Positions 11,115-32,672 of a DNA stretch of 34,995 nucleotides are shown in pieces; the stretch's first letter is position 1, and each line of letters starts with the position of its first letter. The translations under genes were made by a program, and so were the position numbers. The notes under the pieces are model-generated. The model ran no database searches and was not told the origin of the DNA. It saw only the letters and a program-made list of their open reading frames with translations. Source of the DNA: a virus; IMG/VR virus record IMGVR_UViG_3300003690_001926, positions 1 through 34,995 of that record, one strand, 5' to 3'.

Positions 11115-12398
11115 CTAGAACGCACCTTCATGGTTTAGACCTGCTTCCAATGAATCTCCAGAACCCTCGTCAACAGCACCATCAAGGCGGTTCCCCACGA
11201 CTACGCAGGATGCGGCTGCGTCATTTATAGCGACCGAGTCCCCTGTCTGGCCTTGGACAATGTTGCCCACTATGACGGTATTATCGCCGGTTGCAGAAAC
11301 GGTTATCCCATCGCCCCCCGAACCGACTATGCGGTTGCCGATGATCCTCGTCTGGGCACCTGTCAAAATGCCGGTACTGTCTGACCCCAGAATGAGACAA
11401 TCTACAATGGAGCAGTCGTGATAGTTGTTGTTGATGGCTATGCCCTGCTGGTCGGAGTCCACGACCTTGACGTGTTTTAGTTGGTTTCGTGCAGCCTTAA
11501 TGAGAATCCCCTGTACGTCATTCCCCGCCCCCGCTGTAGTCTGGACGGCGATGTTCTCGATAATGCAATCTTCGCCCGATATGTCGATGCCGACAGCGGT
11601 GCCACCGTTGCAAAGAGTGTCCCAGCCGCCGCCCGTCACGTATGCGAAGTCCCCCCCAGACGCTATTACGATGCCGTCCAGGTCTACGCCGTTCTCGCAG
11701 ATGAGGGAGCAGTTGGCACCGGAGAGGGTGATGAGTCCCCGTATATCGCACCCTGCACCCAGCATCAGCGTGATATTGTCACCGGAGAGTACGATTGCAC
11801 CCGTCGCTATCGTCCCCGGCTCACATACAATCTTGACGTTGTTAGTCGAAACTGTGAGCGTACTATATGTGCCGCTCTTGACCAGCATCGTGGTATTGAT
11901 TGCAGCGTCTAAGGCATCATCACCATCCTGTAGCGTTGTCCAGTTCCCGCCGCCTCCAGCGTCCACGACGCCGTCGTAGGGCGCACCGCCGCCGTCAGCG
12001 TAGCCGCCCTGGATATCTACGGCACCGCTAACGCTTAGAATCTCAGCTACCGTTACATTGCCCGAACCCGTGGTCTGGAGCGTGATGCCGTCATCGCCGT
12101 CGATGGTGAGTACGCCCTCTGTGGTGCTGAGAGTCGTTGCTTGCTGAAAGGCAAATGCTCCCGTAGTCCAGGAAAGCTCTACATCAGCAGCTATGGAGAA
12201 CCTGAATCCCAGACCACTAGGCACATTAAGCTGAAGAAAGTCGGGGCCGGCAGCGTCTCGCTGGATGCTATAGGTATTGGCGACAGTGGTGACACCGGTT
12301 GTAAAAGATATCGCATCATCTAGGTCGATGCGTTGAGCAACGCGGGTGGTGTAGTTTGAGCCCTCGTTTATTAGACCTGGTGCGAGATTTACTTTCAT
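11115..12398 (-). CDS. Tail spike with parallel β-helix
   Basis: 427 aa. The N-terminal 170 residues form a head-binding or shaft region rich in Gly and Asp. From about residue 185 onward short β-strand rungs repeat every 20-25 residues (CEPGTIATGAIVLSG, GANCSLICENGVDLDG, NQLKHVKVVDSDQQG, NTVIVGNIVQGQTG), the pattern of right-handed parallel β-helix pectate-lyase-like tail spikes that bind or cleave surface polysaccharide. Catalytic residues cannot be assigned by eye. Its neighbours are small β-rich structural genes and the tail gene block. Confidence 0.75.
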   Translation of the reverse strand: MKVNLAPGLINEGSNYTTRVAQRIDLDDAISFTTGVTTVANTYSIQRDAAGPDFLQLNVPSGLGFRFSIAADVELSWTTGAFAFQQATTLSTTEGVLTIDGDDGITLQTTGSGNVTVAEILSVSGAVDIQGGYADGGGAPYDGVVDAGGGGNWTTLQDGDDALDAAINTTMLVKSGTYSTLTVSTNNVKIVCEPGTIATGAIVLSGDNITLMLGAGCDIRGLITLSGANCSLICENGVDLDGIVIASGGDFAYVTGGGWDTLCNGGTAVGIDISGEDCIIENIAVQTTAGAGNDVQGILIKAARNQLKHVKVVDSDQQGIAINNNYHDCSIVDCLILGSDSTGILTGAQTRIIGNRIVGSGGDGITVSATGDNTVIVGNIVQGQTGDSVAINDAAASCVVVGNRLDGAVDEGSGDSLEAGLNHEGAF

Positions 12399-12400
12399 GG

Positions 12401-12703
12401 TTATGCCCTATCGAAACCGTCAAGGAGAGCAGCCTGTAGATTGCCGTTTGCCCCTGCCACCGCGTTGATGAATGAGAAGCGGTTCAGGAAGGCGTTGTAG
12501 TCGTTCCCTGCCAGGGTGAGAACGTCGCCCACGTTCATGAGGGTGCCTACAGCCGCGGTGGGTGCGGTGCCGTCAGCACGCCAGCGTATGGCGTTGTCCT
12601 CGCAGGTAATGATGGCCTGGGTGGTGCGGATGGGGATGGTGCCGATGGAGCCCGCGTTGTCGTCGGCCTTCGTGGTGTCGAGGTGCCCTGTTTGGTTAGG
12701 CAT
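12401..12703 (-). CDS. Small β-rich virion protein, paralogue of the 111-aa gene
   Basis: 100 aa. Shares a pattern with the 111-aa protein at 13532-13867: IRWRADGTAPTAAVGTLMNVGD versus IRARWDDTNPTATVGELIPTGD (separately scattered matches), then a Phe-Ile strand and a final strand. Both are probably the same β-sandwich fold, common in phage decoration or fibre-tip proteins. A strong GGAGG precedes ATG 12703. It is immediately followed by the tail spike gene. Confidence 0.65.
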   Translation of the reverse strand: MPNQTGHLDTTKADDNAGSIGTIPIRTTQAIITCEDNAIRWRADGTAPTAAVGTLMNVGDVLTLAGNDYNAFLNRFSFINAVAGANGNLQAALLDGFDRA

Positions 12704-12807: not shown

Positions 12808-13422
12808 CTACATCAAATCCTGCTTCTTGCGCAAGTGTCGTAGCTTCCGCTTGGTCGACCACCGCGGCTTCGTGTGGCGACCAAGCTCTGCCGGTAGTGA
12901 GTTCTCGTCGGTGGGCATCGGGATTATCTCCGCTAGCTCCTTTGCCACCGCGGGATGGATGTCCCGCATGATGGGCTCCGCCATCTCGTTCGGGACAATC
13001 ATCTTCCACTCGCCCTCGGTGGGCATGATGACCGCCGCAGGCATGTGGCCGCCCCACTTCTTGTGCGTCCACTGCTGCCACCGCTTGTAGACGTGCTCCC
13101 GGTCGTACCAGGAGGTCTGTAGCTGCTCCAGCGCGTGGGAGAACACGTCCTTGTATGACACCTCGTGCTTCCTGCCGTGACCCTTGTGCCTATCAGGATT
13201 GCAGCGCTCAACAGCCGAGCACAGCTCCTCACCTGCGTCTTCAAGCGACGCACCAACGTCCCGAAAGGCATTCTCCACTCCGTCTCCACAAGGAACGTGA
13301 TGAGCATGGTCCTCGCCTTCGGGCCACCACGAGACGTAGGCATACGGAGAGTACATGCCGCGCTCAGGGATGCGATCTATCAGTTTCTGGAATGCTGGAT
13401 GAAACTCGCTACGTTCTTTCAC
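12808..13422 (-). CDS. Unknown late protein
   Basis: 204 aa from GTG 13422 (GAAGAGG upstream). Contains His/Cys-rich stretches (HAHHVPCGDG, ERCNPDRHKGHGRKH), an acidic middle part and a basic C-terminus (RWSTKRKLRHLRKKQ). The Lys/Arg tail could bind nucleic acid or another virion protein. No family is recognised. It lies among small virion genes, so it may be a virion component or assembly factor. Confidence 0.5.
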   Translation of the reverse strand: MKERSEFHPAFQKLIDRIPERGMYSPYAYVSWWPEGEDHAHHVPCGDGVENAFRDVGASLEDAGEELCSAVERCNPDRHKGHGRKHEVSYKDVFSHALEQLQTSWYDREHVYKRWQQWTHKKWGGHMPAAVIMPTEGEWKMIVPNEMAEPIMRDIHPAVAKELAEIIPMPTDENSLPAELGRHTKPRWSTKRKLRHLRKKQDLM

Positions 13423-13439: not shown

Positions 13440-13532
13440 CTAGAACCATGAGCGTATCCTGTCACGGAGCTGCTGCCACCGTGAGCGGCGGTAGGGGACC
13501 TTGCGCACTCTGTACGGCCAAGGCTGGTACAT
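13440..13532 (-). CDS. 30-aa basic, aromatic micro-ORF
   Basis: ATG 13532 overlaps the stop of the upstream gene (TGATG), and the frame runs 30 codons to TAG 13440-13442, 18 bases before the next GTG start. It is rich in Arg, Tyr and Trp (YRVRKVPYRRSRWQQLRD). The overlap with the upstream stop favours it over a random frame, but the gene is too short to identify and could simply be a coupling leader. Confidence 0.35.
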   Translation of the reverse strand: MYQPWPYRVRKVPYRRSRWQQLRDRIRSWF

Positions 13533-13867
13533 CAGCCGCCACCCAGGAAGTAGTGGGCCTCTACCTGGTAGAAGTGGCCCATCAGGACGGCGCTGGTGCC
13601 GCCCGTGCGGATGAAGAGGTACTTGGTAATCATGGTGAAGTCCAGTAGGATGTCATCTCCGGTCGGTATGAGTTCCCCGACCGTAGCCGTAGGGTTGGTG
13701 TCGTCCCAGCGGGCACGGATGTCTGCCGTCTCTAGCCGCCCCTTGAAGGAATGAGCACCAGCAGGGATGGTGGACGGGCTGCCGGACTCGGCGAACGACA
13801 GTAGGTTGCCCGCTGTGGCCGTGATGACGTAGTGGCCGAAGTCTAGGGCCGTAGGGGTGCGTGGCAT
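13532..13867 (-). CDS. 111-aa β-rich virion protein, paralogue of the 100-aa gene
   Basis: Starts directly after the NeuB-like gene's TAG. The sequence is a run of β-strands (FGHYVITATAGNLLSF, GELIPTGDDILLDF, LFIRTGGTSAVLMGHFYQ). It matches the 100-aa protein at 12401-12703 through a conserved central block (ARWDDTNPTATVGE). The two are likely duplicates, separated by a 204-aa gene. A decoration, fibre-tip or sugar-accepting protein is possible; nothing in the sequence decides. Confidence 0.65.
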   Translation of the reverse strand: MPRTPTALDFGHYVITATAGNLLSFAESGSPSTIPAGAHSFKGRLETADIRARWDDTNPTATVGELIPTGDDILLDFTMITKYLFIRTGGTSAVLMGHFYQVEAHYFLGGG

Positions 13868-14758
13868 CTAGGCCATGAACCTCCGCAGGGATGCGAGCTT
13901 GCTCTTCTCTGACGAGTATACCACCTTGACCCCATCGCCCATAGCGGCTTCCACCTCCCGAACCCCCTTCACCATCTCGGCGAACTCTGCGGGCTCTAGG
14001 CTCAGGGCCTGGTCGCTGCCCCACTGCGTCTTGTCGTTGGTGAAGTGGCGCTCCAGGTACACGGCCCCGAGCGCGACCGCCGCGATGCTGATGGCGGTAC
14101 CGAGCTCGTGACCGGAGTAGCCAATCTGAAACGTCGGTAGTTCTATTTCTGACCGAAAGGATAGTGCTGGCAGTATCAGCACGCGAAGGTTTATCTCTGT
14201 AGGGTCTGTGGGGTAACTGGAGGTACATTGGCAAATGACAAGTGAGTCGCAAATAGGGTCTAGCCCATCTATCGCGTGCTTCACTTGCTTAGGAGTGCTG
14301 CCCCCAGTGGACAGGATTACGGGCCTGCCGGTGGCAGCCACACGCCTCAGTAGGCCATCATCGGTGAGACAGGGGGAACCAATCTTGTACGCGATAGGAT
14401 AGAACGGCTCCATGAAGTCTACCGCAGCCTCGTCCCAGACGGAGACGAACCAGTCGATACCAACATTCCGACAATGGTCATCGATGATTTCGTACTGTGC
14501 TTTGTTGAACTCAAGGCGCTCCCTGTACTCTACGTAATCGAGTTTGCCCCACGGAGTATCTTTCATGACAGCGCGCTGTGCTTCAGGTATAGCATCAGGC
14601 AGTGTACGCTTCTGGAACTTAACCATCGTAGCCCCTGCTTCTTTGGCAAGGTCTATCTGTTTCAGTGCCAGTTTCAGGTCGCCATTATGGTTGCCGCCGA
14701 TCTCGGCGACGATATAGACGGGTTCGCCAGGACCTAGCTTACGGGTACCGATTTCCAT
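13868..14758 (-). CDS. neuB: NeuB-like nonulosonic acid synthase, lacking the SAF domain
   Basis: 296 aa. The TIM-barrel motifs of sialic-acid synthases are present: VAEIGGNHNG (17-26), VKFQ (46-49), YKIGSPCLTD, VILSTGG, QCTSSYP, GYSGHELG and ERHFTNDKTQWGSDQALS. This family condenses phosphoenolpyruvate with a 6-carbon amino sugar (ManNAc or a bacillosamine-derived sugar) to make a 9-carbon nonulosonic acid. The C-terminal SAF antifreeze-like domain of standard 340-350-aa NeuB proteins is absent, which matches a shorter known subfamily with the GYSGHE variant. It overlaps the NeuA-like gene by 25 bases, so the two are coupled. Confidence 0.88.
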   Translation of the reverse strand: MEIGTRKLGPGEPVYIVAEIGGNHNGDLKLALKQIDLAKEAGATMVKFQKRTLPDAIPEAQRAVMKDTPWGKLDYVEYRERLEFNKAQYEIIDDHCRNVGIDWFVSVWDEAAVDFMEPFYPIAYKIGSPCLTDDGLLRRVAATGRPVILSTGGSTPKQVKHAIDGLDPICDSLVICQCTSSYPTDPTEINLRVLILPALSFRSEIELPTFQIGYSGHELGTAISIAAVALGAVYLERHFTNDKTQWGSDQALSLEPAEFAEMVKGVREVEAAMGDGVKVVYSSEKSKLASLRRFMA

Positions 14759-15438
14759 GACAGGATTGCCTCCGCCATCTTCAGGTCGAACGGGGTGTCT
14801 ATCTGCAACCGCTGCTCTTCGTCCATCACGTAGAGCCCGCTACTGTCACCAAGGCGATTGTGGTGCTTGCGCCACACTTCCATGTCGGTGATATAGATTG
14901 CGCCGTTCTCTTCATATTGGTCCATCTCTTGGCGCATGGGACGAAAGCGTGGTTGATGAGCAATGGGTACTCCACAATCACGCCACAGGAAAGCGTGCGA
15001 TGGTACTACCGACAGCATGGAGGAGTACCGCCGTGACTCGAAGTGGTCTAGGGCCTCATCGATGTGGCCCGCCGTCCGCAGCGGCGACGTGGGCTGTAGC
15101 AGCACCACGTTGTCCACCGTCTCGCCCCGCTTCTCCGCCCACTGGTGCAGCACGTGCCCGATGGCGTCTTCGGTGGGCGAGTCGTCCTGGGCCAGATCGT
15201 CGGGCCGCCAGTAGGCCTCCAGCGGCTTCAGCCAGTGGTCGTCATGGTGCTTCCACATCTCCGTCACGTGCCCCATTATCTCAGGGCTGTTCGTCGTCAC
15301 GATGATGTGGTCGATGCTGCGGGCCTCGGTGGCCGCCTGTAGCGTCCAGTCGATGAGCGGCCTGCCACCGAGCGGTGCCATGTTCTTGTTCTTGATGCCC
15401 TTGCTGCCAGCGCGGGCCGGTATGATACCGAGGTTCAT
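14734..15438 (-). CDS. neuA: CMP-nonulosonate synthetase (NeuA-like)
   Basis: 234 aa. Signature IPARAGSKGIKNKN (6-19), the substrate-loop WRPDDLAQDDSPTEDAI (77-93), LLQPTSPLR (113-121) and QIDTPFDL near the C-terminus are diagnostic of CMP-sialic acid/CMP-Kdo cytidylyltransferases. It would activate the product of the neighbouring NeuB-like enzyme with CTP so that a glycosyltransferase can use it. The order synthetase then synthase, with overlap, is typical of nonulosonic acid clusters. Whether the sugar is sialic, legionaminic or pseudaminic acid cannot be told. Confidence 0.9.
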   Translation of the reverse strand: MNLGIIPARAGSKGIKNKNMAPLGGRPLIDWTLQAATEARSIDHIIVTTNSPEIMGHVTEMWKHHDDHWLKPLEAYWRPDDLAQDDSPTEDAIGHVLHQWAEKRGETVDNVVLLQPTSPLRTAGHIDEALDHFESRRYSSMLSVVPSHAFLWRDCGVPIAHQPRFRPMRQEMDQYEENGAIYITDMEVWRKHHNRLGDSSGLYVMDEEQRLQIDTPFDLKMAEAILSWKSVPVS

Positions 15439-16388
15439 ACTGCTACCTTCGCTCGAAACGCCTCTATCGTCTGCCGTATCCCGTCCTCTAGCGACACCTT
15501 CGGTTCCCAGCCGACCTCTCGCAGCTTGGAGCCGTCGAGGAACTCGGACGCCCCGTCGTAGGGATTGCCCTTCACGACGGCCTTGGTGGTCTTGTCTATC
15601 GCAACACCGCTGAAAGTCTCCCGTATCAGGTCTACCAGCAGGCTCACCGCGACGGGCCTGCTACCGACGACATTGACCGCGGTGCCCTTGAACCGCTCTG
15701 CGTTCTCCGCAATGGCGATGAAGGCGTCGGCAGCGTCGGTACCGTACAGGTACGACTTCTGTATCGTGCCGTCGGACTGGATGATGGGCTGCTTGAAGTC
15801 CATCAAGGACAGGATGGTTGCGGGGACGATGTGCTCGTGGTGCGGGTCGCCTGGGCCGTAGGTGTTCGTGGGCCGGACACTGACGGCACGCAGGCCGTAG
15901 TTGTGCGCGTAGCCCTGCGTCAGCATGTCAGCGCATATCTTGCCCACGGTGTACCAGTCACGGCGGCGCATGGACACGTGGTCTTCCTGGTAGTTGCCAT
16001 CACCTAACCAAGGAACCTTAGACATTGAACCGTACACGTGGTTCGTGGACGCGGTGAGCACAGTGGGCACCTTGGCCTGCAGGCACGCCTCCAGTACGTT
16101 ACGGGTGCCGTCGATGCTCAGGTCCATGCTGGCGACGCGATCTTCCTTGGCCGCCGTCACGCCCGACTGCGCCGCAAGGTGGATGAGGATATCCGGTGCC
16201 CAACCCTTGATGGAACACAGTAGGCTATCGTAGTCCAGCACGTTCCCAGTGACGGTTTCGTGCAGGTCGTAGGGGTCTAGTGCCATCGCGTGTATGTCGT
16301 AGTTGAGCACGCTGTGTCCCAGCTCGACCAGCCGCGGCAGCAGGAACGAGCCAATTAAACCTGATCCCCCCGACACTAAGTACCTCAT
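15435..16388 (-). CDS. SDR-family NDP-sugar epimerase/dehydratase
   Basis: 317 aa. NAD-binding GGSGLIGS (7-14) and catalytic YTVGK (146-150, YxxxK) with TASTNHVYG mark an extended short-chain dehydrogenase. The stretch RPTNTYGPGDPHHEHIVPATI and SDGTIQKSYLYGTDAADAF match CDP-glucose 4,6-dehydratase-type enzymes (RfbG) best, but the protein is shorter and the substrate is not certain. It would supply or modify a sugar nucleotide for the nonulosonic acid or a linked glycan. It ends overlapping the NeuA-like gene by four bases (ATGA-like coupling); AGAGG precedes ATG 16388. Confidence 0.82.
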   Translation of the reverse strand: MRYLVSGGSGLIGSFLLPRLVELGHSVLNYDIHAMALDPYDLHETVTGNVLDYDSLLCSIKGWAPDILIHLAAQSGVTAAKEDRVASMDLSIDGTRNVLEACLQAKVPTVLTASTNHVYGSMSKVPWLGDGNYQEDHVSMRRRDWYTVGKICADMLTQGYAHNYGLRAVSVRPTNTYGPGDPHHEHIVPATILSLMDFKQPIIQSDGTIQKSYLYGTDAADAFIAIAENAERFKGTAVNVVGSRPVAVSLLVDLIRETFSGVAIDKTTKAVVKGNPYDGASEFLDGSKLREVGWEPKVSLEDGIRQTIEAFRAKVAV

Positions 16389-16445
16389 TGCGCCACCTCT
16401 TGCATTTGAACGAAGCGCCCGTCATCGCCATGTGTTAACCATGAC

Positions 16446-17186
16446 CTATCCATCAAGCACCTCTTCCAGTGATTTGTACTTTATCGGCACGCCCTTCATC
16501 GGCTTCAGTGCCGGTCGCTCGTCCTTCCCCGTCGCGTTCATGAAGCCTCCAGGGGTGCAGTCGAACATGACGCCGCCGACGGCCTCGAAGTCCTGACGCG
16601 CACGCAGGTGCGACTCCGCTGCGCCCTGCACCGAACGCGGTGTCACGACCATGCCAGGGTCAGCGTCCAGGTCAAAGCAGTACCCCTTCGGCCAGAAGTC
16701 AGTGCCGACGAAGTATATCTCTCGATAGCCCATCCACGCCGCTATCTGTGACAGCGTCAGCGGCGAGTGGCGTCCTGTCTTCAGGGGCTCCAGTGTCTCG
16801 CCGAGCCCCGCGAAGCCGTACTTTGCCATGCGCAACGGGCCGCCGTCCTGTTCCTTCTCAACCCAGACCCAGCCATCCCTTTCAACAGGTTCTGGATGCA
16901 CTACGAACCGCATGGGCATTTTAGGCGACCATGTTTGCGTAATCTCGTCGTAGTAATCTATCTGCTCGGCGTTATATGGCTCGGTCAGACCCATGTAGGT
17001 TGGAATGAAGGGTAACGCTCCCCAGAGAGCCATCCTGTTACAGACGAAGGTGTCCTCGTCAATCAGGCGCTCGACGCCCTTGGTCTTGAGCAGGGATGGG
17101 CCGCAACCCATCATGAAGATGCGACCACTACTTATATTGTGCAGTTCTTCAAGTAGGCCTATGAACTCAGGAGGCTGCGGTTTCAC
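16446..17186 (-). CDS. GT42/Maf (DUF115-like) putative nonulosonate transferase, copy 2
   Basis: 246 aa from GTG 17186 (GGAGGTG upstream). It has MMGCGPSLL (25-33), FVCNRMALW (47-55), SPLTLSQIAAWMGYREIYFVGTDF (given in parts: SPLTLSQIAAW and MGYREIYFVGTDF) and FDCTPGG. The GxGPSL start, CN motif and GY[KR]EIY..G.DF pattern recall CstII-type sialyltransferases and the MptE/Maf DUF115 family, which transfer nonulosonic acids. His193 in a helix after the DF motif is a candidate for the catalytic His. It is a tandem paralogue of the upstream 278-aa gene. Confidence 0.68.
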   Translation of the reverse strand: MKPQPPEFIGLLEELHNISSGRIFMMGCGPSLLKTKGVERLIDEDTFVCNRMALWGALPFIPTYMGLTEPYNAEQIDYYDEITQTWSPKMPMRFVVHPEPVERDGWVWVEKEQDGGPLRMAKYGFAGLGETLEPLKTGRHSPLTLSQIAAWMGYREIYFVGTDFWPKGYCFDLDADPGMVVTPRSVQGAAESHLRARQDFEAVGGVMFDCTPGGFMNATGKDERPALKPMKGVPIKYKSLEEVLDG

Positions 17187-18003
17187 TCAGCACCTCCGCT
17201 ATCTCCCTGTACTCCAACACACCCGATTCGTTGACCCTACCACCAGGAGTGCAGTCGATGACGGTACGGCCAGCGCGTTCGATGTCGCGGCGTGCCCGCT
17301 CGAAGCACTCCAGTATCGACCGTTCGTTACGTGGGAACATCGTGCGGCCCGACTCCTTGTCCCATGCTTGTCCCGTCTGTGTTAGGTCGATTCCCAGAAA
17401 GTAGAACTCAGTGTAACCCATCCATGCTGCAAGCTGGCACAGGGTCAACGGTGACGCCCAGCCGGTTATCAGCGGCGCCAGCCTGTCCCCAAGGCCCTGG
17501 AAGCCCTCCCAACGCATCTGGATGTCGTCTGGGGCCTTTGGGCACCACAGCCAGCCGGGGGCTGTCACGGGCCACCAGTTGATGGCGATACGATTGGTCG
17601 CTGTCGGGTAGTCGTACTGAGGATAGATCATCTTGCCCCAGGCCCCGATAGGCCCAGGTTCCGCCACGACGTGGTGCGTCGGCGTGAACGGCAAGTCTTT
17701 CCAACGGGCTATCCGGTTGACCGTCCACGTCTCCTCGTGCCGCATACGATGCAGCCACTCCACCTGAGACAGCAACGACGGCCCGCTACCGAAGATGAAC
17801 GTCCGGCCCGACTTGGTGTTGTGGACTTCGTCCAACCAGGGAGGCCACTCTATGTCGATACCGAAGTCGTCTTCGGGAGTACCCTGGTGGGCATCGAGGC
17901 TGTTGAAGACGCGGAGAACCATCGAGTCTTCTTCCACGAACCCCAGGTCGAGTTTCGGCACGTGTCCCGAGACGTGGTCCTCAGTGTCGCCGTCAACCAT
18001 CAT
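17167..18003 (-). CDS. GT42/Maf (DUF115-like) putative nonulosonate transferase, copy 1
   Basis: 278 aa. IFGSGPSLL (70-78), TVNRIARW (94-101), SPLTLCQLAAW, GYTEFYFLGIDL (197-207) and VIDCTPGG (248-255) align with the neighbouring 246-aa protein. These also match the arrangement of CstII-like sialyltransferases and DUF115/Maf glycosyltransferases. A 60-residue acidic N-terminal extension precedes the domain. No His equals that of copy 2 in the region between the ID motif and CTPGG, so catalysis may differ. Overlaps the methyltransferase stop (ATATGATG) and the next start; the genes form a coupled chain. Confidence 0.65.
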   Translation of the reverse strand: MMVDGDTEDHVSGHVPKLDLGFVEEDSMVLRVFNSLDAHQGTPEDDFGIDIEWPPWLDEVHNTKSGRTFIFGSGPSLLSQVEWLHRMRHEETWTVNRIARWKDLPFTPTHHVVAEPGPIGAWGKMIYPQYDYPTATNRIAINWWPVTAPGWLWCPKAPDDIQMRWEGFQGLGDRLAPLITGWASPLTLCQLAAWMGYTEFYFLGIDLTQTGQAWDKESGRTMFPRNERSILECFERARRDIERAGRTVIDCTPGGRVNESGVLEYREIAEVLSETAAS

Positions 18004-18977
18004 ATCTCGCGCCTACGAGCCTTGGCGATGAGGGTGTCGTTGCAGCCGTAGCTCACCATGACGGTCCGGTACTCCTTGTCCAACCGACTGATGGAGCGAT
18101 TGAGGATTCCAGACAGTGGATGAGCCCGATTAACAGGTTGTAGGATGAACTGGGCTTCCTGAACGTCCGCCATCGGTTTCTTGTTCAGTATCCAGTTGAT
18201 ATGGTTCATCAACCCGTAACGCTGGTCCCCCATGACCTTCGCCTCGAACGCTAACGCGCCTAGCGCCCCTGCAAGGGTCTCTCGGTTCCAGTAGGTGATG
18301 TGGGGCTTTCGGTACCAGCGGTCTCGGTACTCGTCCACGCCGTAGACGGTCAGCAGGGCGTCACGGACGTTGGGCGTCTCCAGGTACAAGTAACCGCCGC
18401 CGATAAGCCGCTCTTTGCAATCACGCAGGAACTTGGCGGGGTTGGTCTGGTGCTCCAGTACCTGGTTAGCGCAGATGGCGGTGAACCGCTGCCCTGGGTA
18501 GATGTCGAGAAGGTTGCCCTCTTCGCACGGCAGTTCGCCCACGTCTCGCACGTAAGCGGCATCCTCGGGGTTCCACTCGCAGCCGAAGCGGTCGTAGCCG
18601 TCTCCGAGCGCATCAAGGAAGAATCCCGAGGAGCAGCCGATGTCTAGGACCGACGCGCCCTCGGGTACAAACTCGTTGAACCGTTTGACTGACTCACCCA
18701 TCAACGGCCTCATGGTGAGAAACCGTTCCTCGGGAGTCATCACTTTCTCGGGGTTGTAGTCGTGTTCCTTGCGATACTCGTCACGATAGTATTCACGAAT
18801 ATCGTCAAAGGGAGGGGTGATGAACTGGAGGTCGCACTGGAGACAGCGGTAGACGGGATAGTCGGGGTCGTCTCGAACGCCCTTTCGTATCAGCCGTATG
18901 TTAGTCTGCCGACAAAGTGGGCAGGCTACGTTGGCTTCAGTCGGACGTTCCGTCTCCGTCGTGGGTTCCGTTGACAT
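18000..18977 (-). CDS. Class I SAM-dependent methyltransferase with N-terminal zinc ribbon
   Basis: 325 aa. Cysteines C19/C22 and C45/C48 (CPLC, CLQC) form a ribbon, followed by motif I VLDIGCSSG (110-118), GCEWNPE, NQVLEHQTNPAKFLRDCKERL and LYLETPNV. This layout is common among methyltransferases of surface-sugar and secondary-metabolite clusters (Methyltransf_23 type). In the context of sugar genes it may methylate a sugar or lipid-linked glycan. GGAGGACAGCA before ATG 18977 gives a good start, 41 bases inside the previous gene's end. Confidence 0.85.
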   Translation of the reverse strand: MSTEPTTETERPTEANVACPLCRQTNIRLIRKGVRDDPDYPVYRCLQCDLQFITPPFDDIREYYRDEYRKEHDYNPEKVMTPEERFLTMRPLMGESVKRFNEFVPEGASVLDIGCSSGFFLDALGDGYDRFGCEWNPEDAAYVRDVGELPCEEGNLLDIYPGQRFTAICANQVLEHQTNPAKFLRDCKERLIGGGYLYLETPNVRDALLTVYGVDEYRDRWYRKPHITYWNRETLAGALGALAFEAKVMGDQRYGLMNHINWILNKKPMADVQEAQFILQPVNRAHPLSGILNRSISRLDKEYRTVMVSYGCNDTLIAKARRREI

Positions 18978-19491
18978 TGCTGTCCTCCAGTCCTGGTAAG
19001 TCCGAGCCAGCCGCTAATGCGGGCTTGCCGACCCAGACGTCATCAAGCATCTGCCGAAGTTGAGCGGCACCACCATCTGGACTGGTGGTGTCAATCTGCT
19101 CCAGCTCCTCCAGCACGTCCATGAAGGACATACCTTCGGGTAGAACCGCCTTGTGGGGCGTCCCGTCGCCCTGACCAATCGGCCTACGCAGCACCTCTTG
19201 CATAGATGCCATGCCGAACTCCTTGGCAAAGTTCAACAGGGTGAACGCTCCCATGATTACGTTATGGTGCAGTGGCTGGACTATCGCCCCAGGCCACTGG
19301 AATGTGTAGTTGCAGTCGGGGCAGCGATAGATGTTGCCGCCCCGTGCAATTAACGTCATGGTTGGGTGGTCGCACGTGATGGCCTTGCCGTAACGGAAGA
19401 TGTAATTCCGTTTCCGCTCACCACGTGCGGCCACCGCATAGTCGAGCGTGTGTTCAGGTTTGAACTTCTCGACTGCTCTTTCCTCGATCAC
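18937..19491 (-). CDS. Unknown late protein with zinc ribbon
   Basis: 184 aa from GTG 19491, directly after the previous stop. Cys/His pairs CDH (40-42) and YRCPDCNYTF (about 55-64) form a possible zinc ribbon; the C-terminus is acidic (LEDSNVNGTHDGDGTSD). The central helices (GAFTLLNFAKEFGM, MDVLEELEQIDT) have no family match. It connects the head genes and the sugar island and overlaps the methyltransferase gene. Confidence 0.5.
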   Translation of the reverse strand: MIEERAVEKFKPEHTLDYAVAARGERKRNYIFRYGKAITCDHPTMTLIARGGNIYRCPDCNYTFQWPGAIVQPLHHNVIMGAFTLLNFAKEFGMASMQEVLRRPIGQGDGTPHKAVLPEGMSFMDVLEELEQIDTTSPDGGAAQLRQMLDDVWVGKPALAAGSDLPGLEDSNVNGTHDGDGTSD

Positions 19492-19974
19492 TTAGTTGAT
19501 TGCTCCTGGCTTCCCGTAGATGTACGCAACCACTAGGTCAACCATCGCAGCTCCTGCGTCGGTCGTATTAGGGTTAATGGTCAGGTGCCAGTTCACCCAG
19601 TCGTCGGCGTCCAGGTCGGTCGAGGACGTACCGGCAACGTCTCTGGGAACACGTGCCACGAACCCCGCCGTGTCCGTTATCGCCGTGAACAGTGCCGCGG
19701 CACCCGTGGCGTCTCCAGTCGGGCCGCCGTCGGAGAACGTCATCGTCGCCGAAGAGGCAGAGTCAGTCGCTCCAGAGAGGCCAGGAGTGCCAGACAGGCC
19801 ACCGAGCCGGAGGCCCATCGAGAACTCCATGCCGGACACGTCAACCACGCCTGGAACGCTGAACACATTGTACTGCCCCGTAGGGAGGTTGCCAAGGAAG
19901 CCCCCAACGGTGCTTGACACGCCATTGGCGACCAGCCGGCTGACAGACTGTGCATTTGTATATGGGAAAGGCAT
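19492..19974 (-). CDS. Putative virion structural protein
   Basis: 160 aa. AAGGAG precedes ATG 19974 with good spacing. The sequence is Gly/Ser/Thr rich with β-strand pattern (VDVSGMEFSMGLRLGG, VNWHLTINPN, AAMVDLVVAYIYGKPG). In many phages a protein of this type follows the capsid and serves as head decoration or head completion. No specific family is recognised. Confidence 0.6.
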   Translation of the reverse strand: MPFPYTNAQSVSRLVANGVSSTVGGFLGNLPTGQYNVFSVPGVVDVSGMEFSMGLRLGGLSGTPGLSGATDSASSATMTFSDGGPTGDATGAAALFTAITDTAGFVARVPRDVAGTSSTDLDADDWVNWHLTINPNTTDAGAAMVDLVVAYIYGKPGAIN

Positions 19975-21555: not shown

Positions 21556-22446
21556 TTAGACGGTGGCGGATGCGTCGGAGAAGACTTCGACTCCATGCGG
21601 GGAGGCCCTCTCGCCCTCGCCCCATTCCTGGAAGATGCCGTACTCGATGATCCTTGCGCTGTTGTCTGGCTCCTCGGTCACGTCGGCGTCGTTCGCGATG
21701 ACCATGTAAATGGCGTTGCGGGCGAATATTGCCCCCTTGGCATCGGACCCGGAGTCGAGAGGAATGTTCCCGGAGTGGAATATGCTGATTCCGTAAAGGC
21801 GGTCGTTGCCCCTCCACCAACGCTGTAGGAGTTCGTCACCGAAACCGGCAGGCCGCGAACCCGCAGCCGTTCCAGGATCGGAGATGTCCAGGATGATGTC
21901 GCTGATCTGTTCGATGTGGAGTGCGGCCCTGAGGGGAAGCGGTGCTGGGCCGAACGCGCTGTCGTTATCGGTCAGCAAGAAGGCCACGCCACCCCGGAAG
22001 TGAGTTATGTCCATCTGGTTGGACGCACCCACGATGCTCTTGGAGAAGCCGTCATACAGGGCGATTACGTCTAGGTCCATCCTTCGACGGAGTGAGCCCG
22101 CAGATTGCTCTCCCGCCACGCCGACGACACTGCTGTCACCCTGCCTGCGTATGAGCCGCTTGGAAAGGGTTACGATGATGCCGTGCTCAGACGGGGTGAT
22201 CTGTAGGGTGGCGGTAACGAGCTGCTGTACCTGCGAAAGGTCGGTGCCCTCAGTGAGGGCGGTGGCCGCGCTGAGGCGAGCGTACGTGGATATGTCCCAC
22301 TGTTTGGTGCCCACCTCGATACGTTCGCTTTCAACCAGGTCGGGGCCGGGCGCGGCTGGCTCGAAGGCCAGCATTGCGCTGGAAATGAAAATCTTCTGTC
22401 CGTTGGTTAGGTTGCTTGTACCCGAAAGGGTAATGCCTGTAGCCAT
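21556..22446 (-). CDS. HK97-fold major capsid protein
   Basis: 296 aa with strong AAGGAG before ATG 22446. The C-terminal region shows the major-capsid pattern: SIFHSGNIPLD, AIFARNAIYMVI, ARIIEYGIFQ and a final GVEVFSDASA; an E-loop-like segment and long spine-like helix precede (GSLRRRMDLDVIALYDGFSK, LHIEQISDIILDI). It follows the scaffold gene and precedes small structural genes, the usual order. It probably forms the icosahedral shell. Confidence 0.8.
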   Translation of the reverse strand: MATGITLSGTSNLTNGQKIFISSAMLAFEPAAPGPDLVESERIEVGTKQWDISTYARLSAATALTEGTDLSQVQQLVTATLQITPSEHGIIVTLSKRLIRRQGDSSVVGVAGEQSAGSLRRRMDLDVIALYDGFSKSIVGASNQMDITHFRGGVAFLLTDNDSAFGPAPLPLRAALHIEQISDIILDISDPGTAAGSRPAGFGDELLQRWWRGNDRLYGISIFHSGNIPLDSGSDAKGAIFARNAIYMVIANDADVTEEPDNSARIIEYGIFQEWGEGERASPHGVEVFSDASATV

Positions 22447-30433: not shown

Positions 30434-31003
30434 CTACCTCACCGTCTGTCCGCTAGGCATCCCGACCGCGGGACCTGTGGAGCCGCCGAGTTGTCTACCC
30501 AGGATGTTGATGCCGCCCTGGCCCTGTGGGAACACGGACGGCTGCCCTGCCTGCGACGCCACACGGGCCGCCTGTATGTTGGACTCCCCTGGCCGCTGTA
30601 GCTGTGACAGACCGGGGGCGAACTGGTTGCCCACGTTACCGTTGGGTACGGGAGTGTCGGCGGCGGCGGCCAACTGGGCCGGTAGGTCGAGCCTGCGGGC
30701 CAGCTCCTCCGCCTGCTGTGGGAACAGGGCCTCCAGTAGGCGTTCCGCCGTCTGTTGGTTCTGCTCCTCTAGCGGGTTCGTGATGCCGGCGCGACGCTGG
30801 GCTTCGTACAGGGAAATCATGCCCGCCTTCCACAACCGTTCCGCCAGGATGGCCTCTCGCTCCCGTTCCTCCGGCGCCTCCGCCTTCAGGAAGACACGGT
30901 TCTCGTAGAAGCCTCTGATGTCCTCGGGGGTTATGGTTTGGTCGAAGGAGTGGACCTCTGAACGAGCGCGGACCGTAATGCGTCCACGTATCTTGTTTTC
31001 CAC
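30434..31003 (-). CDS. Portal C-terminal part, in the -1 frame
   Basis: 189 residues from GTG 31003. The beginning ENKIRGRITVRARSEVHSF, then PEDIRGFYENRVFLKAEA, GMISLYEAQRRAGI and a Gln-rich tail match the wing-crown end of portal proteins (the LxxGxISxxEAxxxxGI helix is typical). It overlaps the N-terminal portal frame (30931-31003) in the -1 frame. GTG 31003 could restart translation, but the domain looks like the direct continuation of that portal, so a frameshift, programmed or artefactual, is more likely. Confidence 0.65.
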   Translation of the reverse strand: MENKIRGRITVRARSEVHSFDQTITPEDIRGFYENRVFLKAEAPEEREREAILAERLWKAGMISLYEAQRRAGITNPLEEQNQQTAERLLEALFPQQAEELARRLDLPAQLAAAADTPVPNGNVGNQFAPGLSQLQRPGESNIQAARVASQAGQPSVFPQGQGGINILGRQLGGSTGPAVGMPSGQTVR

Positions 31004-32253
31004 AAGAGCCCTTCCATACCTCTTGCAAGGCCGTCGGCATATGGTCCAAAAACGAGGCGGCCCATTCCTGAGAGGACGGAGACTCCAAAACCTGAAGATA
31101 CCCCTGTAGGCCTAATTCCTCTGACGACATTGGGGAACGTGGCCTCCTCTATCATGGTCTGAACCAGGTTGAGTTGGGTCAGTATCTCTTGGGGCGGCGT
31201 CACCTTGGGCGATGGCATCACCTCTACGCCGCGAGTGATGATGTTCTTCCCTGCGAATATCTCGTAGGAGTCGGAGACGTTCTCGGCCTCCTGCCGATTA
31301 CCGCGGAAGTCTATGGTCGGCCAAGAGTATTGTCGTAGGATGGCCTCGTACTGCGTTACTAGACGGGCCTCGGTGTCCAGCAGGTTGTGTACGGGCCGCA
31401 GAATACCCCTGTACCGTTCGTGGGGCGGGCCGGACGAGAAGTCCAGTGAGGTTGCGGGAACAATCTTCTCAATCGGATTCTCGCCGTAGCCGTGCTCCAT
31501 CGGCGGCAGGACGAACAGATTGTCCGCCAAGAACGCCACATGCGTTTCGGACCAGAACTCCGACCACTCGGCAACGTCGTTCAACCCCTTGGACGAAATC
31601 CACTCAGGGTATCGAGCGCGAATCTCTCGAACGGTGGAGCTATACGACTCAATGCACCATTTCATGCCCAACCTTGAGTCGTCCCATATCAAGTTCTTTG
31701 GGTTGATATTGTCATCTCTGATGGGAAACGAGATGTTCCGTTCGGTCATGAACTCGGTTAGCGCGTCTTTGTACGCCTCTTCGGTGGAGAAGTCGTCCAG
31801 GAAGGGGGCATCGGGCCAGAGGTCGGGATCGAAGGTACGTTTGAGGAACGCGATGCCGTAGGTTATCTCATGTTTGGCTGCGGTGCGCAGCACACGGTTC
31901 GGAGTGTGCATCCAGACGCCCTGGTAGAACTTCTTGATGCGTTCGGCGCGTTCCTTGGCCCTTGGGGACGGCTCCGGCACTGCGAACGTTGGGTTGGACA
32001 CGTCTATATGGTCCGTGGCGACGTTTATGATGGCGTGCGCGGTAGCGGGGCGGACGGGGTCGATTGCCAGCCCGACGGGGACGGGCACGTTACGACGAAG
32101 GAAGTAGTAGTCCTCTTCCTGCCGGCAGTTTGTGTGGAACTGACGGTAATACTGCTCGCCCCAGCGTTTCATCGTCAGGATTTGCTCCAACGTGGGAGCC
32201 TGCCCGTCAACGACGAATATGTCGTCCGTGCCACGTGTAGCGGTGAGTACCAT
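30931..32253 (-). CDS. Portal protein, N-terminal and central part
   Basis: 440 aa from ATG 32253, which overlaps the previous TAA (TAATG). Portal features: a phage portal N-terminus (KRWGEQYYRQFHTNCRQEED), a conserved NPKNLIWDD, and GFGVSVLSGMGRLVFGP before the clip/stem region. The true portal continues in the -1 frame; in this frame it ends with an unrelated tail (TRYVDALRSALVQRS). It lies between the terminase and the large virion genes, as expected. An indel in the consensus could explain the split. Confidence 0.78.
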   Translation of the reverse strand: MVLTATRGTDDIFVVDGQAPTLEQILTMKRWGEQYYRQFHTNCRQEEDYYFLRRNVPVPVGLAIDPVRPATAHAIINVATDHIDVSNPTFAVPEPSPRAKERAERIKKFYQGVWMHTPNRVLRTAAKHEITYGIAFLKRTFDPDLWPDAPFLDDFSTEEAYKDALTEFMTERNISFPIRDDNINPKNLIWDDSRLGMKWCIESYSSTVREIRARYPEWISSKGLNDVAEWSEFWSETHVAFLADNLFVLPPMEHGYGENPIEKIVPATSLDFSSGPPHERYRGILRPVHNLLDTEARLVTQYEAILRQYSWPTIDFRGNRQEAENVSDSYEIFAGKNIITRGVEVMPSPKVTPPQEILTQLNLVQTMIEEATFPNVVRGIRPTGVSSGFGVSVLSGMGRLVFGPYADGLARGMEGLLWKTRYVDALRSALVQRSTPSTKP

Positions 32254-32672
32254 TACAAAACCTGCCCAGTAGCCTCGCATAGCGTATTGAATCGTTTCAT
32301 TTCGCGTTCTTGCGACCTACGTAGAGCACGAGGCATGTCTTTCATAAAATCTTCCGAATGCTCTTCACACATTAACGTGCCGTGCGCATATTGATTCGAG
32401 CCATCTTCCTTGTACCCAACATGAAAGGGGCCTGCTGCCGCATATACTCTAAATGTGAGGTTTGTCCCGCCCAGCAAAAGCGTTAAATGCTCGCCTTCTG
32501 CCGCGACCACACCACATCTCTCTTTACCCCTCCAAGCACAACAACCTTGAACGCCAAGATATTCCAGCGCTCGGCCTGGTTCCGCCATCTCGCCATGAAG
32601 TCTCTTGATTCTTGACGGGATTCCATGTGGGCTTATCCACTCAGCAGCAATTTCAACAGGTTGATGAGTCAA
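32253..32672 (-). CDS. Unknown Cys/His protein between terminase and portal
   Basis: 139 aa from TTG 32672 (TTGA overlap with the terminase stop, GGGGTGAAG upstream). Cysteine pattern CCAWRGKERCG plus LMCEEH in the second half suggests metal binding. Lacks an enzyme signature. Such genes between terminase and portal in other phages have unknown roles, and no family is claimed here. Confidence 0.5.
   Translation of the reverse strand: MTHQPVEIAAEWISPHGIPSRIKRLHGEMAEPGRALEYLGVQGCCAWRGKERCGVVAAEGEHLTLLLGGTNLTFRVYAAAGPFHVGYKEDGSNQYAHGTLMCEEHSEDFMKDMPRALRRSQEREMKRFNTLCEATGQVL

Follow-up and report, generated by a model that had tools for sequence, protein, structure and literature searches.

The gene island and its place in the phage genome

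The IMG/VR virus record IMGVR_UViG_3300003690_001926, whose 34,995 bp are called the window here, carries a gene island for the synthesis, activation and putative transfer of a nonulosonic (sialic-like) acid. It was taken as a phage because it is an IMG/VR virus record and encodes a terminase large subunit (TerL; PHROG 2, 8e-28; PF04466, 5e-7). Replication-initiation and DnaC-like genes lie on the plus strand in the left side of the window, and the structural genes form a long minus-strand block. The island is genuine. One overlapping minus-strand chain of genes encodes NeuB, NeuA, an extended short-chain dehydrogenase/reductase (SDR), the paralogous transferase-like proteins GTa and GTb, and a methyltransferase of class I. 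An earlier note, made from the DNA alone, had described six open reading frames (ORFs) at 13868-18977 between the head and tail genes of the late operon. All six were present at these positions, read from the minus strand and enclosed by the head-to-tail gene block; an ORF check and Pfam scans confirmed them and their family-level identities, and their position was borne out by the gene order. Neighbours in the chain overlap by 4 to 41 bases, and the sole gap (57 bases) lies between GTb and the SDR. A scan of the island region for promoter- or terminator-like signals showed none above chance, hydropathy revealed no membrane segment in any island protein, and NeuB, NeuA and the transferases were all without a PHROGs family.

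NeuB and NeuA are a nonulosonate synthase and its activating enzyme

The NeuB-type nonulosonate synthase (13868-14758, minus strand; 296 residues) consists of the TIM barrel only. It matched PF03102 with E=9.2e-68 and 228.7 bits (curated cut-off 22.1), and a profile built from 27 relatives, almost all of phage origin, found the Neisseria meningitidis NeuB 1xuu with E=5e-83 over residues 8-286. In the sequence alignment the residues E19 (in AEIGGNHNG), K47, Q49, K125, S215, H217, H238 and D249 were conserved, and the columns aligned with the N. meningitidis enzyme included the conserved stretches GYSGHELG, LERHFT, VKFQ and YKIGS. We take the conserved residues to bind phosphoenolpyruvate (PEP), the metal and the sugar, with counterparts in N. 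meningitidis that include His215, His236, Lys53 and Lys129. The PEP and metal sites are therefore conserved at the level of the alignment.

A C-terminal SAF (antifreeze-like) domain was not found, with no PF08666 match anywhere in the record. Judged by the lengths of the homologues this is a property of the clade and no defect, because the phage homologues (mostly 272-300 residues) and most ORFs of the closest bacterial homologues, which come from Chloroflexota, Streptomyces and Hymenobacter (about 288-305 residues), are equally too short for it. A synthase chain without this domain has already been solved, since the PDB chain 6ncs has only 290 residues. The loci of these bacterial relatives contained a NeuA-like gene in 54 of 80 cases. 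The exact sugar is not nameable, because NeuB stayed far below the cut-offs of both the NeuB and the PseI equivalog models (TIGR03569, 224 against 399.65 bits; TIGR03586, 193 against 340.25 bits). In the NeuB tree, whose rows were picked by similarity, the phage proteins mostly clustered apart from the bacterial ones. The window protein and that of locus L011 were placed, with weak support, close to the bacterial side on long branches, and for this reason no donor is claimed.

The NeuA-type CMP-nonulosonate cytidylyltransferase (14734-15438, minus strand; 234 residues) matched PF02348 with E=3.7e-20 and 73.1 bits (cut-off 22.6) and the CMP-NeuAc synthetases 6ifd (6.6e-26) and 1eyr (3.5e-23) in the PDB. 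Its N-terminal (R)AGSKG(I)xxKN motif is present as PARAGSKGIKNKN. With their active-site residues in place, both enzymes are what the earlier note had named them.

The next gene encodes an extended SDR of 317 residues (15435-16388, minus strand; PF01370, 4.4e-42; GDP_Man_Dehyd, 8.5e-30) that resembles nucleotide-sugar epimerases, with UDP-glucose 4-epimerase 7ys8 as the best PDB match (1.1e-24). The 4,6-dehydratases have an Asp-Glu pair in the active-site motif. Here the motif reads STNHVYG (SSNHVYG in L012) and lacks this pair, so a dehydratase role is unlikely for the SDR. A UDP-GlcNAc 2-epimerase of the NeuC type was not detected either (no PF02350 in the record, which may be a fragment), and the host, or genes beyond the record, would therefore have to supply the precursor. 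Hence the proposed synthesis genes are present as NeuB and NeuA, but the module is incomplete and would need a host precursor. The methyltransferase (18000-18977, minus strand; 325 residues; Methyltransf_23 PF13489, 1.4e-15) belongs to the class I S-adenosylmethionine-dependent enzymes, has an N-terminal CxxC...CxxC zinc-ribbon-like region and is 53% identical in L012 and L219.

GTa and GTb belong to the GT42/Maf/MptE fold class

The putative CMP-nonulosonate transferases GTb (16446-17186) and GTa (17167-18003), both on the minus strand, belong to one family and are 43% identical. Their matches to PF01973 were weak and below the cut-off (E 2.1e-4 and 0.076; 21.5 and 13.2 bits against 34.6), and neither matched the GT42 family PF06002, which was matched by 1 of 41 homologues (1.4e-6). 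When a joint profile of GTa and GTb was compared with PDB chains, the GT42 enzymes CstII and CstI were the sole significant matches (E 6e-4). A profile of the 41-member phage family found CstII with 1.5e-14, CstI with 4e-12, MptE with 5e-6 and 5mu5 with 7e-6. The latter is labelled as uncharacterized in its structure file and is the Maf structure of Magnetospirillum. Within the family one member matched the model of the flagellin modification protein PseD and two matched WaaZ, a Kdo (3-deoxy-D-manno-oct-2-ulosonic acid) transferase.

The AlphaFold2 model of GTa had a mean confidence (pLDDT, predicted local distance difference test) of 80.6, with about 90 or more across most of the core. In a Foldseek search of the PDB the best matches were an MptE-type 6-hydroxymethylpterin diphosphokinase (HPPK) and CstII, followed by GT29 sialyltransferases; the match to CstII was distant (probability 0.99, E 9e-3, template modelling (TM) score 0.39-0.44). 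Among viral models the best matches were DUF115/MptE-like phage proteins. The catalytic residues of CstII are His188 and Tyr156/Tyr162. In a hand alignment, made without superposition, these seem to be absent from GTa and GTb, which are therefore placed by fold class only. The GTa model and the profiles thus suggest diverged members of the GT42/Maf/MptE fold class that are assigned to neither GT42 nor Maf. The label GT42/Maf-like, which the earlier note had given them, is kept at the level of the fold class only, because neither protein matches PF06002 and both apparently lack the CstII catalytic residues.

The island occupies a shared insertion site in the structural block

The strongest evidence came from comparative genomics. 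Five relatives (L127, L128, L129, L130 and L133) have no island at the same position. Their gene order is the capsid-like gene, the counterparts of genes 20923 and 20069, a gene for about 250 residues and then the 12808 gene and/or a member of the 13532/12401 family, with nothing between; the L130 stretch begins after the capsid-like gene. L127, with a TerL 72% and a capsid-like protein 79% identical to those of the window, has the homologue of 13532-13867 directly after the gene of about 250 residues. In the window, a gene for 160 residues, a gene for 184 residues and the six-gene island break into this run. PF03102 was not found in 29 records of TerL relatives, most of which are short fragments and of which only the five named above reach past the island position. 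Nor did any of the 34 loci from TerL relatives, many of them short, contain a GTa-like gene.

The synteny expected of a true island was found in distant phages. The contigs 3300027815_000001 and 3300001380_000011, whose TerL is 36% identical, have the whole block in the same order and at the same site, plus a third transferase, and contig 3300001380_000055 has the block up to the third transferase, where it ends. Between 3300027815_000001 and 3300001380_000055 the ratio of nonsynonymous to synonymous substitutions (dN/dS, Nei-Gojobori) was 0.04-0.17 for the island enzymes and 0.105 for the capsid-like gene, with synonymous sites near saturation in some genes. By this measure purifying selection on the island enzymes is strong, and they appear as constrained as the capsid-like gene.

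The extent of 13868-18977 given earlier was too small, and the upstream boundary should be extended by two genes that are inherited with the island. The first (18937-19491, minus strand) encodes a conserved protein of 184 residues with a CxxC zinc-ribbon-like motif, 44% identical in L012 and 41% in L219, and no relative of it was found in the island-free phages examined. The second (19492-19974, minus strand) encodes a protein of 160 residues rich in Ser, Thr, Gly and Ala (20% Ser plus Thr), with identities of 34-39% in L012 and L219 only. It occupies the place of the gene of about 250 residues in the relatives and has no profile similarity to it (hhalign probability 1.2%). Because the 160-residue protein is unrelated to the product of the gene that it replaced and turned up only in island-bearing phages, it is, by association, the best candidate for the acceptor of the sugar.

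Flanking genes

On the head side, the gene at 21556-22446 (minus strand) probably encodes the major capsid protein, as judged by order and conservation; it had no family match. Related phages, among them G046, encode proteins 60-79% identical to its product, and distant homologues come after a scaffold-like gene in L021, L026 and L059. The right-hand edge of the insertion is a gene for a small protein (13532-13867, minus strand; 73% identity in L127), a paralogue of 12401-12703. These two paralogues flank 12808-13422, and one or both are kept in the relatives. Downstream of them, 11115-12398 encodes a right-handed beta-helix (PF13229, 4.7e-6), as expected of a tail spike.

The portal-like gene of the window (30434-32280) is present as two overlapping ORFs (30931-32280 and 30434-31003), in the relatives as a single ORF of 611-619 residues. 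This is a frameshift, either real or an assembly error. In contig 3300027815_000001 a gene between the tail and early genes (L124:1376-2074) was identified by eye as coding for a TatC-like membrane protein. No host is nameable, because a TerL search of 400 genomes from the phylum of a Chloroflexota metagenome-assembled genome gave only matches of 28-36% in nine genomes.

NeuB genes are frequent in phages and linked to GTa-like genes

Related NeuB proteins were confirmed in IMG/VR by at least 513 matches from 600 candidate stretches. Among 50,697 phage records, tblastn found three matches only with NeuB and none with GTa. We surveyed 85 loci, of which 83 were IMG/VR or phage contigs retrieved by their similarity to NeuB; the set also included one SAF-bearing reference from bacteria, and near-duplicates. 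In 63 of the loci NeuA was nearby, and in 46 a GTa-like gene was present. GTa-like genes directly adjoined NeuB or NeuA in 54 of 76 cases (40 distinct loci), compared to 17.9 expected from permutation within each locus, where the maximum in 1000 permutations was 29.

The surroundings of NeuB varied among the surveyed loci. L021 (2577-10575), L026 and L059 have NeuB with a radical SAM gene, a methyltransferase and a two-piece pair resembling thiamine pyrophosphate enzymes ahead of the capsid gene; in L021 the set sits between portal/terminase and capsid, and in L010 a different set follows a capsid-like gene. The marine phage locus L002:2006-14682 has, by names read from the sequence, two NeuB-like genes, NeuA, a UDP-GlcNAc 2-epimerase-like (WecB-like) gene, SDRs, several glycosyltransferases and a GT29-like sialyltransferase. 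In L004:7253-12074, from a 484-kb phage (LR756508.1), motifs indicated four GT29-like sialyltransferase genes around NeuB, which suggests that a second transferase fold may be paired with phage NeuB. The second NeuB-like ORFs of L039, L047 and L060 are very long (503-632 residues) and perhaps are fusions.

Proposed function and alternative explanations

Since a soluble CMP-nonulosonate set and dedicated transferases lie among virion genes and were exchanged with one of them, the modification of a virion protein is the best explanation. We put at roughly 0.5 the probability that the island is a late-expressed soluble cassette that transfers the sugar of a CMP-nonulosonate to a virion protein in the cytoplasm. 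NeuB would condense PEP with a host-derived hexose precursor to a nonulosonic acid, NeuA would activate it with CTP, and the SDR and the methyltransferase would tailor the sugar. GTa and GTb would then transfer it from CMP to Ser or Thr residues of a virion protein of the same operon, most likely the product of 19492-19974. The effect would be like that of Maf on flagellin, but on the virus particle. We infer the donor, the acceptor and the linkage in this scheme, as well as its purpose, which may be masking or an altered surface charge of the particle. Several observations weigh against virion modification. The placement in the late operon is alone no proof of a virion target, and the AlphaFold prediction for the proposed acceptor was poor (pLDDT 31). 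Also, the PDB fold matches of GTa are distant (query-normalised TM at most 0.39) and include a pterin diphosphokinase, and the CstII catalytic His and Tyr are apparently not conserved.

The main rival, possible but clearly less probable, is that the cassette alters the host surface late in infection by capping a polysaccharide or glycolipid, for superinfection exclusion or for the release of progeny from receptors. GT42 enzymes do cap surface glycolipids, phage genes for surface modification are of a known kind, and wide polysaccharide-like clusters around NeuB were seen in the large surveyed phages, as in L002 with its putative WecB-like epimerase and GT29-like gene. However, the island encodes no membrane-bound transferase, flippase or polymerase, the insertions lie inside the head-to-tail block in several phages, and a gene of the structural block was replaced along with the island. 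Position, insertion pattern, the lack of membrane or flippase genes and the co-replacement of the neighbouring gene thus favour a virion target over the host surface.

It is improbable that GTa and GTb are kinases or have another MptE-type activity and that the CMP-sugar of the island is used by host enzymes. By E-value the top Foldseek match in the PDB was an archaeal MptE-type HPPK (4.3e-3), and PF01973 is now named MptE-like. On the other hand, the family profile prefers CstII to MptE by many orders of magnitude, the linkage to NeuB and NeuA is tight over many phages, and PF01973 is also the catalytic domain of Maf, which resembles CstII (PMC11339370). A passive cargo of horizontally gained metabolic genes with no specific phage role was already disfavoured and is very unlikely. 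Beyond the three phages with the island, the closest NeuB relatives show identities of about 50-56% and are in many cases bacterial, and relatives live without the island; but strong purifying selection acts between two phages, gene order and site are the same in distantly related phages, and the overlapping genes are matched to the operon. A role of the island in DNA modification was considered and dropped, as we know of no link between NeuB or NeuA products and DNA modification.

Relation to known systems

The closest parallel to virion modification is the glycosylation of flagellin with CMP-nonulosonates by Maf/PseD in Campylobacter, Aeromonas and Clostridium, in which a NeuB-type synthase, a NeuA-type activator and a PF01973/CstII-like transferase also act on protein (PMC11339370). 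Maf has three domains, whereas GTa and GTb are lone domains of 246-278 residues with PF01973 below the cut-off, encoded in the structural operon of a phage with no flagellin. With the GT42 enzymes CstI and CstII they have in common the fold class and the GxGPSL and GxD motifs, and among PDB sequences the family profile matches these enzymes best, but a PF06002 match is missing and the catalytic residues are not evidently conserved. Mycobacteriophage virions have glycans on capsid and tail-tube subunits (Freeman et al. 2023, cited in PMC12619734); the parts of PMC12619734 consulted do not mention nonulosonate synthesis, whereas in the phage here a NeuB-NeuA pair is dedicated to it and the transferases have another fold. 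In Acinetobacter phages, genes acting on nonulosonic acids are known, namely epaA/epaB (PMC12053666) and O-acetyltransferases (PMC6586298). According to the titles and abstracts of these papers, such genes change the existing capsule sugar of the host and, unlike the island, do not synthesise and activate one.

Phage neuB itself is not new. It is common in IMG/VR, and among uncontaminated viromes Roux et al. (2013, Table 1) detected neuB in 8 and neuA in 5, listing these genes as then undescribed in complete viral genomes (PMC3877843); those data were reads, without gene neighbourhood, transferase or mechanism. In the open-access literature no report was found of a phage that synthesises a nonulosonate of its own and attaches it to virions. 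The broader proposal, which falls somewhat short of even odds, is a self-contained phage protein-sialylation system, in which a cassette in the capsid operon would make a CMP-nonulosonate and minimal single-domain Maf/GT42-like transferases would attach it to a dedicated, co-exchanged surface protein. As part of this proposal the system would be a widespread trait of marine phages, given the at least 513 IMG/VR NeuB matches, many of them paired with the same transferase family.

Sialylation as a strategy has precedents in bacterial flagella and in animal viruses, which use host enzymes. If the proposal is true, some phages sialylate their own particles with a self-made and self-activated sugar, and mass spectrometry on a single type of particle could directly test why phages carry sialic acid genes. 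Small soluble CMP-nonulosonate transferases would then be at hand for protein glycoengineering, and a large unexplained set of virome neuB genes would have a function.

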